From assembly GCA_013822855.1 (NCBI GenBank), contig PNLE01000012.1, positions 1-38,487 on the forward strand: 38,487 bases of DNA, read 5' to 3'. The stretch is from Planctomyces sp. (GTDB taxonomy: Bacteria > Planctomycetota > Planctomycetia > Planctomycetales > Planctomycetaceae). The notes beneath the pieces are model-generated. The model ran no database searches. It saw only the letters and a program-made list of their open reading frames with translations, and was not told the DNA's origin. Of this stretch, positions 3,251-19,318 are shown in pieces (the first letter of the stretch is position 1; every line of letters begins with the position of its first letter). The position numbers and the translations under genes were made by a program.

Positions 3251-4522
3251 TTAGAAGCCAGCGGGAATCTTGAGCAGGCCACCCTTGGGCTTGTCGCCGG
3301 TCTCCTTGCCCGTGCCGAAGACCGTCACATAGGCGTTCCCTTCCTTGTCGAAGGTGAGCGCGGTGGGACGATCCAAGGACATGATCTTCTTGGGCTTCAC
3401 TTCTTCCCCTTCGAAGACCAATTCAAACAGGCCGCCCTGAGTCGGATCGGGCCAGGCGAAGTCGACGGCGTAGAGCTTGCCGTTCGGAGCATAGGCCAGC
3501 CCCGTGATGTCATGCAGACCCGTCTTGTAGTTCCGCAGTAGCTTGCCATCTTCCGGATTGTAGAACGTGACGAGCGAGTCACCGGCAACGTTCACTTCAC
3601 CACCCTGGCCGATGACCAGTTCCTTGCCGTCGGGAGTCGAGGTGGCGGCGATCGGAGCGTCGACGCCGGTGGCTTCCTTCGTGGCGAGCCAAGGGAGCAG
3701 GTCGCCGGGCTTGCCGTCCGTGACGATCGACTTGGCGACCCAGCCCTTGGCATCGTTGCCGTTGGCCGTCACATAGAAGGCGTTGCCGATGACGGCGACG
3801 CCATAGTAGTTGCCTTCACCCTTGGGGCTGGCTTCACCGGGAGCGATCGGGCCGATCGTCGTTTCCGCGTCGGTCTCCTTGCGGGGAGGGCCGGGAACCT
3901 TGTCTTCGATCTTGTAGACGCGAACCAGTTCCTCGCCATCGGGACGGCTGCCGTCGGCGACGATCAGCTTGTCGGTTCCCAGCAGCGCGACACCGAGTGG
4001 CCCGATGTCGTACTTGGGGCCCTTGCCGTAAACGTCGGTCGGGAAGCCTTCGACTTCCAGATAGATCTTGTGCGGCTTCCCCTGCACCAATCGGAAGACA
4101 CCCTGCTTCGAAACGATGAAGACATGCCCGTTACCACCATGAATGGCGACACCGGTGGGGTTGTCGAGATGCTCGACCAGTTCCAGAGGCTTGGGCCCGG
4201 CGGGAGTTTCCGCTGGCTTGGTTTCAGCTGGCTTGGTTTCAGCTGGCTTCTCTTCGGCCTTTGGGGCTTCTGTCTTGGGAGGCTCTGTCTTAGGAGCTTC
4301 AGGCTTGGCTTCTTCCGTCTTCGGAGCTTCGGTCTTCGGGGCGTCCTGCGGTGCTGCGGGAGTTTCCGCCTTCGGTGCCTCCGCCGCTGGCGCATCCGTC
4401 TTGGGGGCTTCCGCTGCGGGAGCCGCGTCCTGGGCCGCAGCCGCAGTCATCGTCAAAGCGGTCGCCAGCAAGGCGGCAGCCAGGCTTTTCGTGGAATGGA
4501 GATCGTTCAAACAGAAACGCAT
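3251..4522 (-). CDS. Secreted protein with Lys/Pro/Ala repeat linker and NHL/SMP-30-like beta-propeller
   Basis: A 423-residue exported protein. Residues 1-30 form a signal peptide (ending around TAAAAQ). Residues 31-110 are low complexity, made of repeated APKTEA/PAETK units that repeat at the DNA level as well (4210-4270), and look like a flexible spacer. Residues about 111-423 contain repeated blade-like strings (NPTGVAIHGG, PLGVALLG, YYGVAVIG, DITGLAYAPNG, RPTALTFDKEGN) typical of NHL or SMP-30/gluconolactonase-type propellers. No enzyme motif is certain, so the role may be binding or a lactonase-like activity. It is a single gene ended by the hairpin at 3064-3105. Short-repeat slippage could change the linker length between strains. 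Confidence 0.8.
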   Translation of the reverse strand: MRFCLNDLHSTKSLAAALLATALTMTAAAAQDAAPAAEAPKTDAPAAEAPKAETPAAPQDAPKTEAPKTEEAKPEAPKTEPPKTEAPKAEEKPAETKPAETKPAETPAGPKPLELVEHLDNPTGVAIHGGNGHVFIVSKQGVFRLVQGKPHKIYLEVEGFPTDVYGKGPKYDIGPLGVALLGTDKLIVADGSRPDGEELVRVYKIEDKVPGPPRKETDAETTIGPIAPGEASPKGEGNYYGVAVIGNAFYVTANGNDAKGWVAKSIVTDGKPGDLLPWLATKEATGVDAPIAATSTPDGKELVIGQGGEVNVAGDSLVTFYNPEDGKLLRNYKTGLHDITGLAYAPNGKLYAVDFAWPDPTQGGLFELVFEGEEVKPKKIMSLDRPTALTFDKEGNAYVTVFGTGKETGDKPKGGLLKIPAGF

Positions 4523-15247: not shown

Positions 15248-15853
15248 TTACGGTCGCACCGCCCCTTCCGTGGGTGACGCCGCTGCGGGAGGCGTGACGG
15301 TCTCGGTGGGCTTCTCCGGCGTTTCGACGACCCCCTTCAAGTTGGCCAGGCCCTTCTCGAAATCCCTCCCCACCATTTCGTCGAGGTTCATGAACAGCCC
15401 GGCGAGCTTGCCCATGAAGTTGTTGGGGCCGTACATCGTCCAGACAACCTTGGTCTGATCCCCTTCCGGCGCGAACTGGAACTCCGTGATGTTCAAGCAG
15501 GCCATCGGCTTGATGAACTCCAGATTGATCTTCACGAACTCGCCGGGCTTGTCTTCCAGGAGCGTCATTTTCCCTTCGCCAACCTCGTCGTTGCCCGACC
15601 ATTTGAAAACCGTCCCCACCCCCTGTGCGGGCCCTTCGAACTCGTTCTTGGCGTTGGGGTCGAGCTTCGCCCACGGCGACCACGCCTCCCACTTGCGGAA
15701 GTCGCTGACATGCCCCGAGACCTCCGCCGCCGGTCCCTTGATGAGGGCCGATCGCGTCACCCGGAACTCATCCGGCTGCATGGCGACCACACCGACGAAA
15801 ACAGCCGAAAGGACGACGAGCACGGCCAGGACGATCAACAGTTTGGAACGCAT
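15248..15853 (-). CDS. SRPBCC (START-like) family protein with N-terminal membrane helix
   Basis: A 201-residue protein. Residues about 5-25 (LLIVLAVLVVLSAVFVGVVA) make one transmembrane or uncleaved signal segment. Residues about 30-175 match the polyketide cyclase/SRPBCC pattern: EVSGHVSDFRKWEAWSPWAKLDPN near the start and GDQTKVVWTMYGPN later. These domains bind hydrophobic ligands. The last 25 residues are Thr/Pro/Ala-rich and probably disordered. Membrane-anchored SRPBCC proteins of this shape are common and mostly uncharacterised; no enzyme activity can be claimed. It stands alone, about 190 bases before the end of the CotH gene. Confidence 0.85.
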   Translation of the reverse strand: MRSKLLIVLAVLVVLSAVFVGVVAMQPDEFRVTRSALIKGPAAEVSGHVSDFRKWEAWSPWAKLDPNAKNEFEGPAQGVGTVFKWSGNDEVGEGKMTLLEDKPGEFVKINLEFIKPMACLNITEFQFAPEGDQTKVVWTMYGPNNFMGKLAGLFMNLDEMVGRDFEKGLANLKGVVETPEKPTETVTPPAAASPTEGAVRP

Positions 15854-16044: not shown

Positions 16045-17754
16045 TCACTGACCGAGACGCACGATCCGCAGCGACGACCGATCGATCTGCAATTCCCCTT
16101 CGGAGACACGGATCCCCAGCCTCGCCTCCACGGCCCGTCGATCCTCCCGCACTTGAATTCCGATGACAAACTCCGACCAGTCCTGCGATCCGTCGACCGC
16201 CTTCCATTGCTCTTCAAAATTTGTGCCTGTCACCAGCGTCTCGGCGTGGTTCTCGTCGAGACGCTTCAGGCCGAGAACCCTGAACCGGCCGGTGATCTGG
16301 TAATTCCCGCGAGCCAGCAACAGCGAACGTCGCCACGAACCGGCACCCGGCTGCTCGCTGGGGACGCGAACACGAAGCACTTCCACTCCTTCACTTGTGG
16401 TCTGCGTGTCGACGGCGATCTGATCGTTGTCGGCGGCGGGCGACCATTCGGGGAGGGGGATCGAGTCACCGCTGCCGAACGACAGGGGGACCGGCTCCTC
16501 CTCCTGGAATTGCTCGACGATCCGCAGCGACCGTTCCCGCAGTCTCTGCTTCAAGTCTTCGATTTGGCGTTGATGATTGGCGACCGCCTCTTTGCCCAGT
16601 TCCTCGATCGCCGGTTTCAGCCGGGCCGCCGCCGCATCGACACGGGCAACCAAGTCGTTGGCGGGGACGAAGATCGGCATCAACTCCAGAATCCTCTGAC
16701 GGTAGCGTGCCCGCCAACGATCACTCCCCAGGATCTGTCGCGCCACCAGCGAGCCATTCAGCTCGAATAGGCCCATCCCGGTGTCGCCGAAAATCTGATC
16801 CATGCCGTGGGGCATGAAAATGGCTTTGCGGGTTTCCGGATCGAAGTAGAGACGATAGTTGTTCGTGTTCGCCGAGTATCCGTCCCAATGACAGATCATT
16901 TTTTCGAGGGCCATGAAATCGATGAACCGCTCGACATCCAGGCATCGCTCGATGTCCCGGATCCGCGCCTCTGGATCCTCCTGACGGAGTGCTTCCACCA
17001 AGCCCTTCAGATCGCTGTGGTCATCCACCCCGTCGCCGGAATCCTTCTCCAGTTCGGCGTCGAGATCCTGAACGAAACCCCCGTCATACAAGTTGCCGTT
17101 CGGATTTTGAAAGAATCGCTCCAACAGCTTGACCCCATACGATTCACGAATGACATACAGCGAAGGCTGGCCGTCATTCAGTCGCACCAGGGCATGCGAA
17201 ACCCGGGGAGCCGGATAGCCCGCCAGTCGGAAGATCTCGGATCCCAGCCATTCGTTCAGATACGTCTCATCCTGCACCGAATTGTTGAGATGAAATTTGT
17301 CGAGACCGTCGAAGCTCTGCTTCTTGCGGAACTTGTCGAGGTTGATGGTGAAGCCCGGCTTCCCCGAAAAGTCCTGATAGCTCCCGGCGGCCCCCTTCAA
17401 TTTGACACCCACCGCTTCCCAGGGGGGCCGACCCGCTTCCGTCAGCACCCCCCGTTCATAGGGTCGATGATCCGCCTGCATGCGTTCCATGGCGGTCGGG
17501 GGCAACTGCAGATGCAGTCGGAACACATCCGGCGACCCGAAAACCCGCCCCCCTCTCTCGAAGGCCTTCTTCTTGCCTTCGACCTTCACACCCCGTGGCT
17601 GCGATTCGGGCGGGGATGTCGCAGCCGACTGGGCTGGTTGTTCGGCCGAGTGTGACCAAGCGGCTGTTGAAGCCACGACAGCGAACAAGATCGGCAGCAG
17701 AACGTATGGCAGACTTCGGGTGTTGCCCGTCGAACGATTCACTGGGAATCCCAT
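16045..17754 (-). CDS. CotH kinase-like secreted protein
   Basis: About 569 residues. The ATG at 17754 has GAGG six bases upstream and gives a clear signal peptide (LLPILFAVVASTAAWSHS); earlier ATGs at 17826/17823 lack a site. The CotH fold (about 70-400) is shown by LKGAAGSYQDF, the LHLQLPPTAMERMQ string near the start, FHLNNSVQDETYLNEWLG and MPHGMDQIFGD, equivalent to the D-x-(D) metal region of spore-coat kinase CotH. The C-terminal part (about 440-569) has a jelly-roll-like look (YQITGRFRVLGL, EARLGIRVSEGELQIDRSSLRIV), perhaps carbohydrate binding. Secreted CotH-type proteins are abundant in planctomycetes; their substrate outside spore formers is unknown. It probably follows the small gene 17836-18177 in one operon. 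Confidence 0.85.
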   Translation of the reverse strand: MGFPVNRSTGNTRSLPYVLLPILFAVVASTAAWSHSAEQPAQSAATSPPESQPRGVKVEGKKKAFERGGRVFGSPDVFRLHLQLPPTAMERMQADHRPYERGVLTEAGRPPWEAVGVKLKGAAGSYQDFSGKPGFTINLDKFRKKQSFDGLDKFHLNNSVQDETYLNEWLGSEIFRLAGYPAPRVSHALVRLNDGQPSLYVIRESYGVKLLERFFQNPNGNLYDGGFVQDLDAELEKDSGDGVDDHSDLKGLVEALRQEDPEARIRDIERCLDVERFIDFMALEKMICHWDGYSANTNNYRLYFDPETRKAIFMPHGMDQIFGDTGMGLFELNGSLVARQILGSDRWRARYRQRILELMPIFVPANDLVARVDAAAARLKPAIEELGKEAVANHQRQIEDLKQRLRERSLRIVEQFQEEEPVPLSFGSGDSIPLPEWSPAADNDQIAVDTQTTSEGVEVLRVRVPSEQPGAGSWRRSLLLARGNYQITGRFRVLGLKRLDENHAETLVTGTNFEEQWKAVDGSQDWSEFVIGIQVREDRRAVEARLGIRVSEGELQIDRSSLRIVRLGQ

Positions 17755-17835
17755 CCACCACCTCGGTTCTTCGATTTCGTCCACTTCAGACAACCCGTTG
17801 GGACAACCAGCGGAGATCGCCATCATACAGTGGAG

Positions 17836-18177
17836 TCACACTGCGGGAGGACGTCGTTTTCCCACGCGGTTCTGCCAGAAAAGACGGTCCTGAGTCGCCA
17901 CTCCGATCCGCAGGGCACACCGCAGGCAATACTTCTCGATCTCCCCCTGCAGGAAGATTTCCCCATTGAGGATCAGGTGGAAATACTCCTCCCCGGGCAG
18001 CTTGGCGTAGCAATAGACCTTCTCGGTATCGAGCTTGATCTTCGCCTCCCACCCTTCCTGATTGGGGACATACAACCGGGCATCCGGGAGCGGCGTTGGA
18101 GGTGTGGAGGCCGCAGCCACCGGTGCGGGTTCCGCCGGGGTCTCTTCCAAGGGCATCGGTTCGTCCTCCGGCGGCAT
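17836..18177 (-). CDS. Small hypothetical protein
   Basis: A 113-residue protein I do not recognise. The N-terminal 30 residues are Pro/Glu/Ala-rich; from about residue 35 it has a compact, conserved-looking core (LYVPNQEGWEAKIKLDTEK, LPGEEYFHLILNGEIFL, EKYCLRCALRIGVATQDRL) with two cysteines in CLRC. There is no signal peptide. The ATG at 18177 is chosen over the TTG one codon earlier. It is coded between the sugar isomerase and the CotH gene, 58 and 81 bases from them, so probably cotranscribed. Its start lies in a 20-bp tandem repeat containing two overlapping mini-ORFs (see repeat entry), which may couple its translation to the isomerase. Confidence 0.65.
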   Translation of the reverse strand: MPPEDEPMPLEETPAEPAPVAAASTPPTPLPDARLYVPNQEGWEAKIKLDTEKVYCYAKLPGEEYFHLILNGEIFLQGEIEKYCLRCALRIGVATQDRLFWQNRVGKRRPPAV

Positions 18178-18240
18178 CAACGCGACTCCGGTTTCATCAA
18201 GCCGACTCTGGTTGCATCAACGCGTCTCTGCTGTGTCAAC
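18174..18240 (-). repeat. Tandem 20-bp repeat with chained TGATG stop-start sites
   Basis: On the minus strand the unit TTGATG-AAACCGGAGTCGCG recurs every 19-20 bases: from the isomerase stop (18236-18238), then TTGATG at three places ending with the start of the small gene at 18177. The first two copies make six-codon frames, MQPESA and MKPESR, each ending in a TGA that overlaps the next ATG (TGATG). The third is the real start MPPEDEP, whose codons also resemble the unit. The repeat is imperfect at its isomerase end. Confidence 0.75.
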
Positions 18241-19060
18241 GAGGAAAGTGCAGGCGGTAGCTCTCGATCGTCGCGCGCGCGGCGGTCATGGCGTCGGGCA
18301 GGCTCTTCGCCTCGGCCGAAACATAGCCCGCATAGCCGATCTCTTTGAGTGTGGTCGCGACAGCCGGAAAGTCAAGATGCCCCATCCCCGCCGCCAGCCG
18401 ATTGGAGTCAACGTAGTGGACATGCCCAATCCATTGGCCACCCTCGACCAGCCCCTGGGCGATCGAGGTCTCCTCGATGTTCATATGGAACAAATCCGCC
18501 AACAAACGGCAATCCGGCGCGCCGAACGATTGCAGGATCGTCACGCCATCCGCCTGCGTGTTGCAGAGGTTCGTCTCATAGCGATTGAGCGGCTCGTAAA
18601 TCAGCGGGATGCCATGCCGTGAGAAAGCCCGGTCACCCAATTCCGCGAGCGCCTCGCCCAGGAGCATCCGGCCTTCCGGAATGAGTTGCGATGTCGCGGC
18701 CCGTCCCTGCATCGAGCCGATGATCGCCGGCGCCCCCAGCGGCCCACCATAGTCGATCATGTCGGCGATGAACTTCTTCGCCGCCTGGCGAACACCGGCG
18801 TCCGGGCTGGTCAACGAGAGCTGCTTCCGCAGCCAACCCGCACCCGTCCCTACCGCCGCCAGTTTCAGGCCATACCGCGTGAGGACTTCCCGCAACGTCT
18901 TCGCCGGAATATACCCCGGCTCCGGCGCGAAGAGTTCCACCGCATCGAAGCCTAGTTCACACGCCGAACGGCAACCCGCTTCGAAGTCGTCCCAGAAAAC
19001 AAACGGCCCCCCCCGCGCCTCTTCCACAAGACTGATCGTCACGGCCGAAAGAATGGGCAT
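18236..19060 (-). CDS. Sugar phosphate isomerase/epimerase (AP endonuclease family 2 TIM barrel)
   Basis: About 274 residues of the xylose isomerase-like TIM-barrel family. Barrel and metal-site strings are AIIGSMQGRA, IPLIYEPLNRYET (metal Glu), DCRLLADLFHMNIEE (Asp/His), WIGHVHYVDSNR (His) and YAGYVSAEAK (Glu), the usual four-ligand divalent metal set. Relatives are hydroxypyruvate isomerases, tagatose/psicose epimerases and inositol-pathway isomerases; the substrate cannot be chosen. The ATG at 19060 begins the family core; the longer frame contains a dispersed repeat and is rejected. It follows pgk on the same strand after 258 bases that hold two inverted REP-like copies. The gene downstream is the small unknown protein. 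Confidence 0.85.
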   Translation of the reverse strand: MPILSAVTISLVEEARGGPFVFWDDFEAGCRSACELGFDAVELFAPEPGYIPAKTLREVLTRYGLKLAAVGTGAGWLRKQLSLTSPDAGVRQAAKKFIADMIDYGGPLGAPAIIGSMQGRAATSQLIPEGRMLLGEALAELGDRAFSRHGIPLIYEPLNRYETNLCNTQADGVTILQSFGAPDCRLLADLFHMNIEETSIAQGLVEGGQWIGHVHYVDSNRLAAGMGHLDFPAVATTLKEIGYAGYVSAEAKSLPDAMTAARATIESYRLHFPR

Positions 19061-19108
19061 GGAGAGGCTTTCCGACTGTGGATTCTCGGTGGCATGGGTT
19101 CGTATCAA

Positions 19109-19156
19109 CCCTCGCCCGGTACTCCGGGAGAGGGTGGCCGCCAGGCCGGGTGAGGG
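19109..19156. repeat. REP-like palindromic element, copy 1
   Basis: CCCTCGCCCGG followed by a hairpin-forming CCGGGAGAGGG and then GGCCGGGTGAGGG. Together with the inverted copy at 19256-19296 it flanks a 100-base segment between pgk and the sugar isomerase. Such GC-rich palindromes of the CCCTCxCCC...GGGTGAGGG type are, to my knowledge, dispersed in many bacterial genomes; numbers of copies cannot be judged here. Confidence 0.6.
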
Positions 19157-19255
19157 TCTTCCCGAGCGATATGGCGAATCTGGTTTCGCTCCCAGGAGGG
19201 CCAACAGACTCGCCGTAATGCGTCTTGAGGAGGTGGCACCACACGCTCGAACTCG

Positions 19256-19296
19256 CCCTCACCCCGGCCCCCTCCCATCGGAATGGGAGAGGGGGC
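19256..19296. repeat. REP-like palindromic element, copy 2 (inverted)
   Basis: CCCTCACCCCGGCC followed by CCCTCCCATCGGAATGGGAGAGGG: the reverse complement resembles the element at 19109-19156 over most of its length. The inner arms CCCCCTCCCAT and ATGGGAGAGGGGG form a hairpin with a small bulge. It lies 23 bases beyond the stop of pgk and could also help terminate its transcript. Confidence 0.6.
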
Positions 19297-19318
19297 AAGA
19301 CGGCCATCCGAACGAGCA

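Follow-up and report, generated by a model that had tools for sequence, protein, structure and literature searches.

The window, a stretch of 38,487 nucleotides from Planctomyces sp., carries on its minus strand a gene for a xylose-isomerase-like protein (here the isomerase), a short tandem repeat and a small gene (Table 1). The isomerase matched the Pfam family PF01261 (AP_endonuc_2) with E=5e-37, and its best NCBIfam model was 5-keto-L-gluconate epimerase, at 212.8 bits, which is below the 300-bit cut-off. The small protein had no family match in Pfam, NCBIfam or the PDB sequences. Relatives of the small gene were present in 101 of 150 family genomes, and the protein has a conserved core, YCYAKLPGEEYFHLILNGEI...EKYCLRCALRIG...QDRLFWQN, with a CxxC motif. 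Structure prediction from three sequences gave a mean pLDDT of 47.1, which was too poor to use. On the minus strand at 16045-17826, a gene of the CotH-kinase family separates the small gene from a downstream ORF (15248-15853, minus strand; MRSKLLIVLAVL...). At locus L049 of the same genus, an ORF similar to this one by eye (MKQRLLIVLVVF...) follows closely after the small gene; the CotH gene may have been inserted in the present genome or lost at L049. The window also contains 15-bp tandem arrays at 4206-4339, of 2.9 and 4.9 copies.

Table 1. Features at the junction of the isomerase and the small gene, in positions of the window.
Feature	Position	Strand	Details
AP_endonuc_2 / xylose-isomerase-like TIM-barrel protein, upstream gene	18236..19060	-	274 aa from ATG 19060; stop TGA 18238-18236
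Degenerate 19-nt first unit, isomerase stop inside	18221..18239	-	13/20 identity to units 1 and 2, one gap; 10/20 to unit 3
Unit 1, TTGATGCAACCAGAGTCGGC	18201..18220	-	ATG1 18217 opens MQPESA-stop
Unit 2, TTGATGAAACCGGAGTCGCG	18181..18200	-	ATG2 18197 opens MKPESR-stop
Unit 3, TTGATGCCGCCGGAGGACGA, most diverged	18161..18180	-	ATG3 18177 in small-gene frame; contains the GGAGGA preceding ATG4
Small gene	17836..18177	-	113 aa from ATG3, 106 aa from ATG4 (18156)
ATG4, alternative in-frame start	18154..18156	-	Strongest SD-like site of the four ATGs

The initial annotation had described three 20-bp units between the two genes, with two six-codon mini-frames chained by TGATG and leading into the small gene. 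The sequence bears this out and adds the strand, minus, which that description did not give. The TGA of each mini-frame overlaps the next ATG as TGATG (-1 nt), and the stop of MKPESR in this way reaches ATG3, the first ATG in the frame of the small gene. Two elements were missing from the description: ATG4, which is in frame and follows a GGAGGA, and the 18 nt that separate ATG1 from the isomerase stop, with no stop-start overlap there. Units 1 and 2 are identical at 16/20 positions, units 1 and 3 at 13/20 and units 2 and 3 at 12/20. Eleven columns, comprising TTGATG, CC and GAG, are the same in all three units, which differ elsewhere. Since the units are not identical, we considered an assembly artefact unlikely.

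The repeat is real and non-random. Tandem Repeats Finder reported it twice at period 20, at 18166-18228 (3.2 copies, 76% matches, score 77) and at 18174-18230 (2.8 copies, 78% matches, score 79), and when the window was dinucleotide-shuffled 100 times no score reached 77, the maximum being 69. The chain of frames, in turn, is a property of the unit. Because the unit holds TGATG and its period is 18 + 2, each TGA falls in frame with the previous ATG. Among simulated perfect period-20 units at 60.5% G+C, TGATG occurred on a given strand in 1.4%, and 86% of the units that contained it stayed open up to the next TGATG. With the chain nearly automatic in TGATG-bearing 20-bp tandem units, the two mini-frames amount to one coincidence and not to several. 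Column conservation across units 1 to 3 gave P of about 0.03 when the TGATG block alone was scored and 0.0013 when GAG was included as well; the two blocks had been chosen post hoc. Across the whole genome, TGATG-N15-TGATG occurred 11 times, two of them at this array, compared with once for the reversed-pattern control. A looser triple TGATG (gaps of 6-36) had 34 matches, of which some overlap, while its reversed control had 3; TGATG clusters are thus common in this genome.

We compared the candidate starts by the energy of their SD duplexes. The anti-SD was assumed, because the 16S end was not found in the genus genomes: RF00177 had no match in any of the four (G000-G003, two of them in 1-2 contigs), and 9 of 14 control genomes were matched. 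With this anti-SD, the duplexes were -9.5 kcal/mol for ATG4, -6.1 for ATG3 and -2.9 for both ATG2 and ATG1. The background quantiles were -10.7 (1%), -8.5 (5%), -6.8 (10%) and -3.0 (median), placing ATG4 between the 1% and 5% quantiles and ATG1 and ATG2 at the median. The SD-like sequences are GGAGGA before ATG4 and GGAG before ATG3, and a GAG core precedes each ATG. The GAGGAC-ATG context of ATG4 resembles a GAGGAC-ATG start in relatives. The conserved core begins 32 codons after ATG3 and 25 after ATG4, compared with 31-36 in relatives; by length ATG3 thus fits the relatives at least as closely as ATG4 does, and both are candidate starts. In the family member at L028 we considered a TGATG at the likely start of the small gene, and rejected it as a parallel since its TGA closes no evident gene. 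In our reading, the small gene is probably translated mainly from its own SD-like sites, the GGAGGA of ATG4 and the GGAG of ATG3.

The repeat was then sought in relatives. In all four genomes of the genus sample, the present one included, the isomerase adjoins the small gene (L049 is apparently the same contig as that of G003). None of the other three, all with the same gene pair, has a tandem repeat or a TGATG in the gap, which there measures 111-112 nt from the isomerase stop to the small-gene start; here the distance to ATG4 is 79 nt. The initial annotation had named absence from close relatives as grounds for refuting its proposal; none of the three congeners has the repeat at this junction, and they are fairly distant. 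Their isomerases are just 76-78% identical to the one in the window, so the absence says little about nearer strains, which could still carry the repeat. A contig scan for nearer relatives returned three loci, none of them closer, and no second genome of this species turned up. What the absence refutes, at this distance, is that the repeat is conserved and not that it is active. As far as the data show, the repeat is specific to the lineage of the window among the genomes compared. The isomerase was not seen next to a relative of the small gene at any of 27 further loci (L022-L048, with L048 apparently the same contig as L036), within flanks of about 1.5-3 kb, some of which end at contig ends.

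The initial annotation had also suggested that ribosomes finishing the isomerase could reinitiate stepwise into the small gene. In such a working relay, ribosomes that terminate on the isomerase or load at a unit would read one six-codon frame after the other and be passed by the -1 nt overlaps to ATG3, so that the output of the small gene would be tied to that of the isomerase, or its start insulated, as by serial bicistronic leaders. The anatomy allows this: the two TGATG overlaps are perfect, all elements share one orientation, the final frame is correct, and the TTGATG and the GAG core before each ATG are unchanged across the three units (a post hoc observation). Work on native gene pairs gives the proposal some footing. 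In E. coli, reinitiation needs no more than the last 15 nt of the upstream gene (PMC10666635), and 4 of 5 E. coli pairs showed substantially less of it once SD motifs within the upstream gene had been removed, such a motif in the upstream frame being helpful and not strictly required (PMC6728339). According to one review, ribosomes may reach a coupled gene by way of a short upstream ORF (PMC12548453).

Reinitiation is also reported to be strongly distance-dependent across six native gene pairs (PMC10666635). In that report ribosomes crossed 15 nt in one E. coli pair, and coupling at 14 nt was still 60% in one such pair and less than 20% in a second; a spacing of about 20 nt almost abolished coupling, and one of 38 nt reduced it by 80-90% or abolished it in E. 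coli. Because published coupling falls with distance in this way, the overlaps between the mini-frames favour coupling and the 18 nt to be crossed from the isomerase disfavour it. The weak SD-like pairing of ATG1 and ATG2 (under the assumed anti-SD), the stronger start downstream of the chain at ATG4 and the absence of the repeat from all three other genus genomes likewise count against the relay. Planctomycetes have been placed among the intermediate users of SD sites, strong SD motifs being few in them (PMC6728339). Folding of the RNA over the junction was unexceptional (z 0.61, equalled or bettered by 142 of 200 shuffles); this counts against the relay and led us to reject a conserved RNA element. 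We also rejected an internal promoter at the repeat, as 17700-19300 held no promoter-like site by a sigma-70-type consensus (0.3 expected), and a terminator, as the two terminator-like sites in the same interval (1.4 expected) both lie within the isomerase. The geometry proposed in the initial annotation thus stands, and we consider it unlikely that a relay works through it.

The arrangement has partial counterparts in known systems. Termination-reinitiation overlaps of the TGATG/ATGA type (PMC6728339, PMC10666635) are alike in the TGATG geometry, which holds between the mini-frames and into ATG3, in co-directional genes and, less clearly, in an SD-like sequence within the upstream frame. As described in those papers, however, the upstream frames are real genes, whereas in the present case a repeat supplies two six-codon frames in their place, with a putative coupling, and the repeat is absent in the relatives examined. 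Bicistronic design (BCD) leaders (PMC5995908) and the uORF coupled to iraD (PMC5574718) resemble the present case in having a short frame just upstream, which there is translated before the main gene; as described, they have one leader frame, in contrast to two in series here, together with a possible seven-codon in-frame extension. The stop-start overlap is known as a coupling device, and serial overlaps generated by a tandem repeat were not found in the literature searched: among the titles and abstract openings listed for open-licence PMC papers on coupling, mini-ORFs, repeats and leaders, we found no natural serial case. In the same open-licence literature, no paper paired Planctopirus with tandem repeats.

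Tandem TGATG arrays elsewhere offer another comparison. An exact period-20 triple TGATG was found in just 3 of 170 family genomes (the present one, its congener G001 and G131), and we rejected a recurring device on this count; the order-level search covered the same 170 genomes, and other periods were searched in the present genome only. The array in G001 (L123 from 1501; G001:C1:375690-375754) has the unit TGATGCAATGGCCCCCTGTG, is longer than the present array and lies in an unrelated gap. Its TGATG strand is antisense to both flanking long ORFs, and the array in G131 has no evident gene in line by the ORF list alone. Such arrays therefore arise without a coupling role.

The genome also contains arrays of a CCATCAA heptamer, on C10, C28, C33, C113, C143, C222 and C266, with a 14-bp relative at C20:8696-8738. 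These arrays share a CATCA/TGATG core with the 20-bp unit, which raises the alternative that the array is a DNA- or RNA-level intergenic repeat akin to the heptamers of the genus, a candidate protein-binding site or mutational hot spot, in which TGATG would be merely the reverse complement of the CATCA core. The pattern CCATCAACCATCAA was present at 7 places in the genome (14 overlapping matches, against 5 for the reversed-pattern control) and at 2, 2 and 3 places in the relatives. By a longest-ORF heuristic its flanking genes run in mixed directions; C33 and C266, for instance, have convergent neighbours and C10 divergent ones. The shared core is just six bases, however, and the array has a period of 20, not the seven-base tandem unit of the CCATCAA class nor a multiple of it. 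None of the other TGATG-N15-TGATG places in the genome resembles the unit, and a 465-base query matched the genome at its own place alone, which also led us to reject a dispersed repeat. By the same heuristic, 7 of 14 heptamer loci fell in gaps, 3 overlapped an ORF edge and 4 lay inside an ORF call, so the heptamers are not cleanly intergenic. The TAACTGA direct repeats reported between genes of marine Beggiatoaceae (PMC4679880) also have a period of 7, and occur in 169 sets, compared with one 20-bp array here. A DNA- or RNA-level role of this kind is in our estimate quite improbable.

We favour, with a probability of roughly 0.6, a young, lineage-specific duplication whose effect on translation is minor at most, and in which the small gene is started by ordinary initiation and the chain is a by-product. 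A 20-bp tandem duplication would have arisen in this lineage at the junction of the two co-directional genes, its source probably being the stop-start/SD region that heads the small gene. With TGATG in the unit and a period of 2 mod 3, each copy automatically closes one mini-frame and opens the next. Ribosomes arriving from the isomerase or the mini-frames would contribute at most a modest share by reinitiation, and those that did would enter at ATG3 and make a protein seven residues longer than that from ATG4.

The initial annotation had further proposed that the repeat could change its unit number and so tune expression. A change in unit number could at most grade the expression of the small gene and not frameshift it off, since the last ATG stays in the small-gene frame whatever the number of units. 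A stronger version, to which we would give very little credence, is that the unit forms a complete SD-start-stop-start module which propagates itself, slippage adding or removing one reinitiation step while the downstream frame is kept, so that a single cistron within an operon would be tuned in a graded way.

As it stands, the junction chiefly shows that stop-start chains come automatically with a short repeat that has TGATG and a period of 2 mod 3, and for this reason they should be taken as function only alongside conservation or expression data. If the relay were true, tandem duplication would build a graded, frame-safe tuner of expression from a single stop-start junction.
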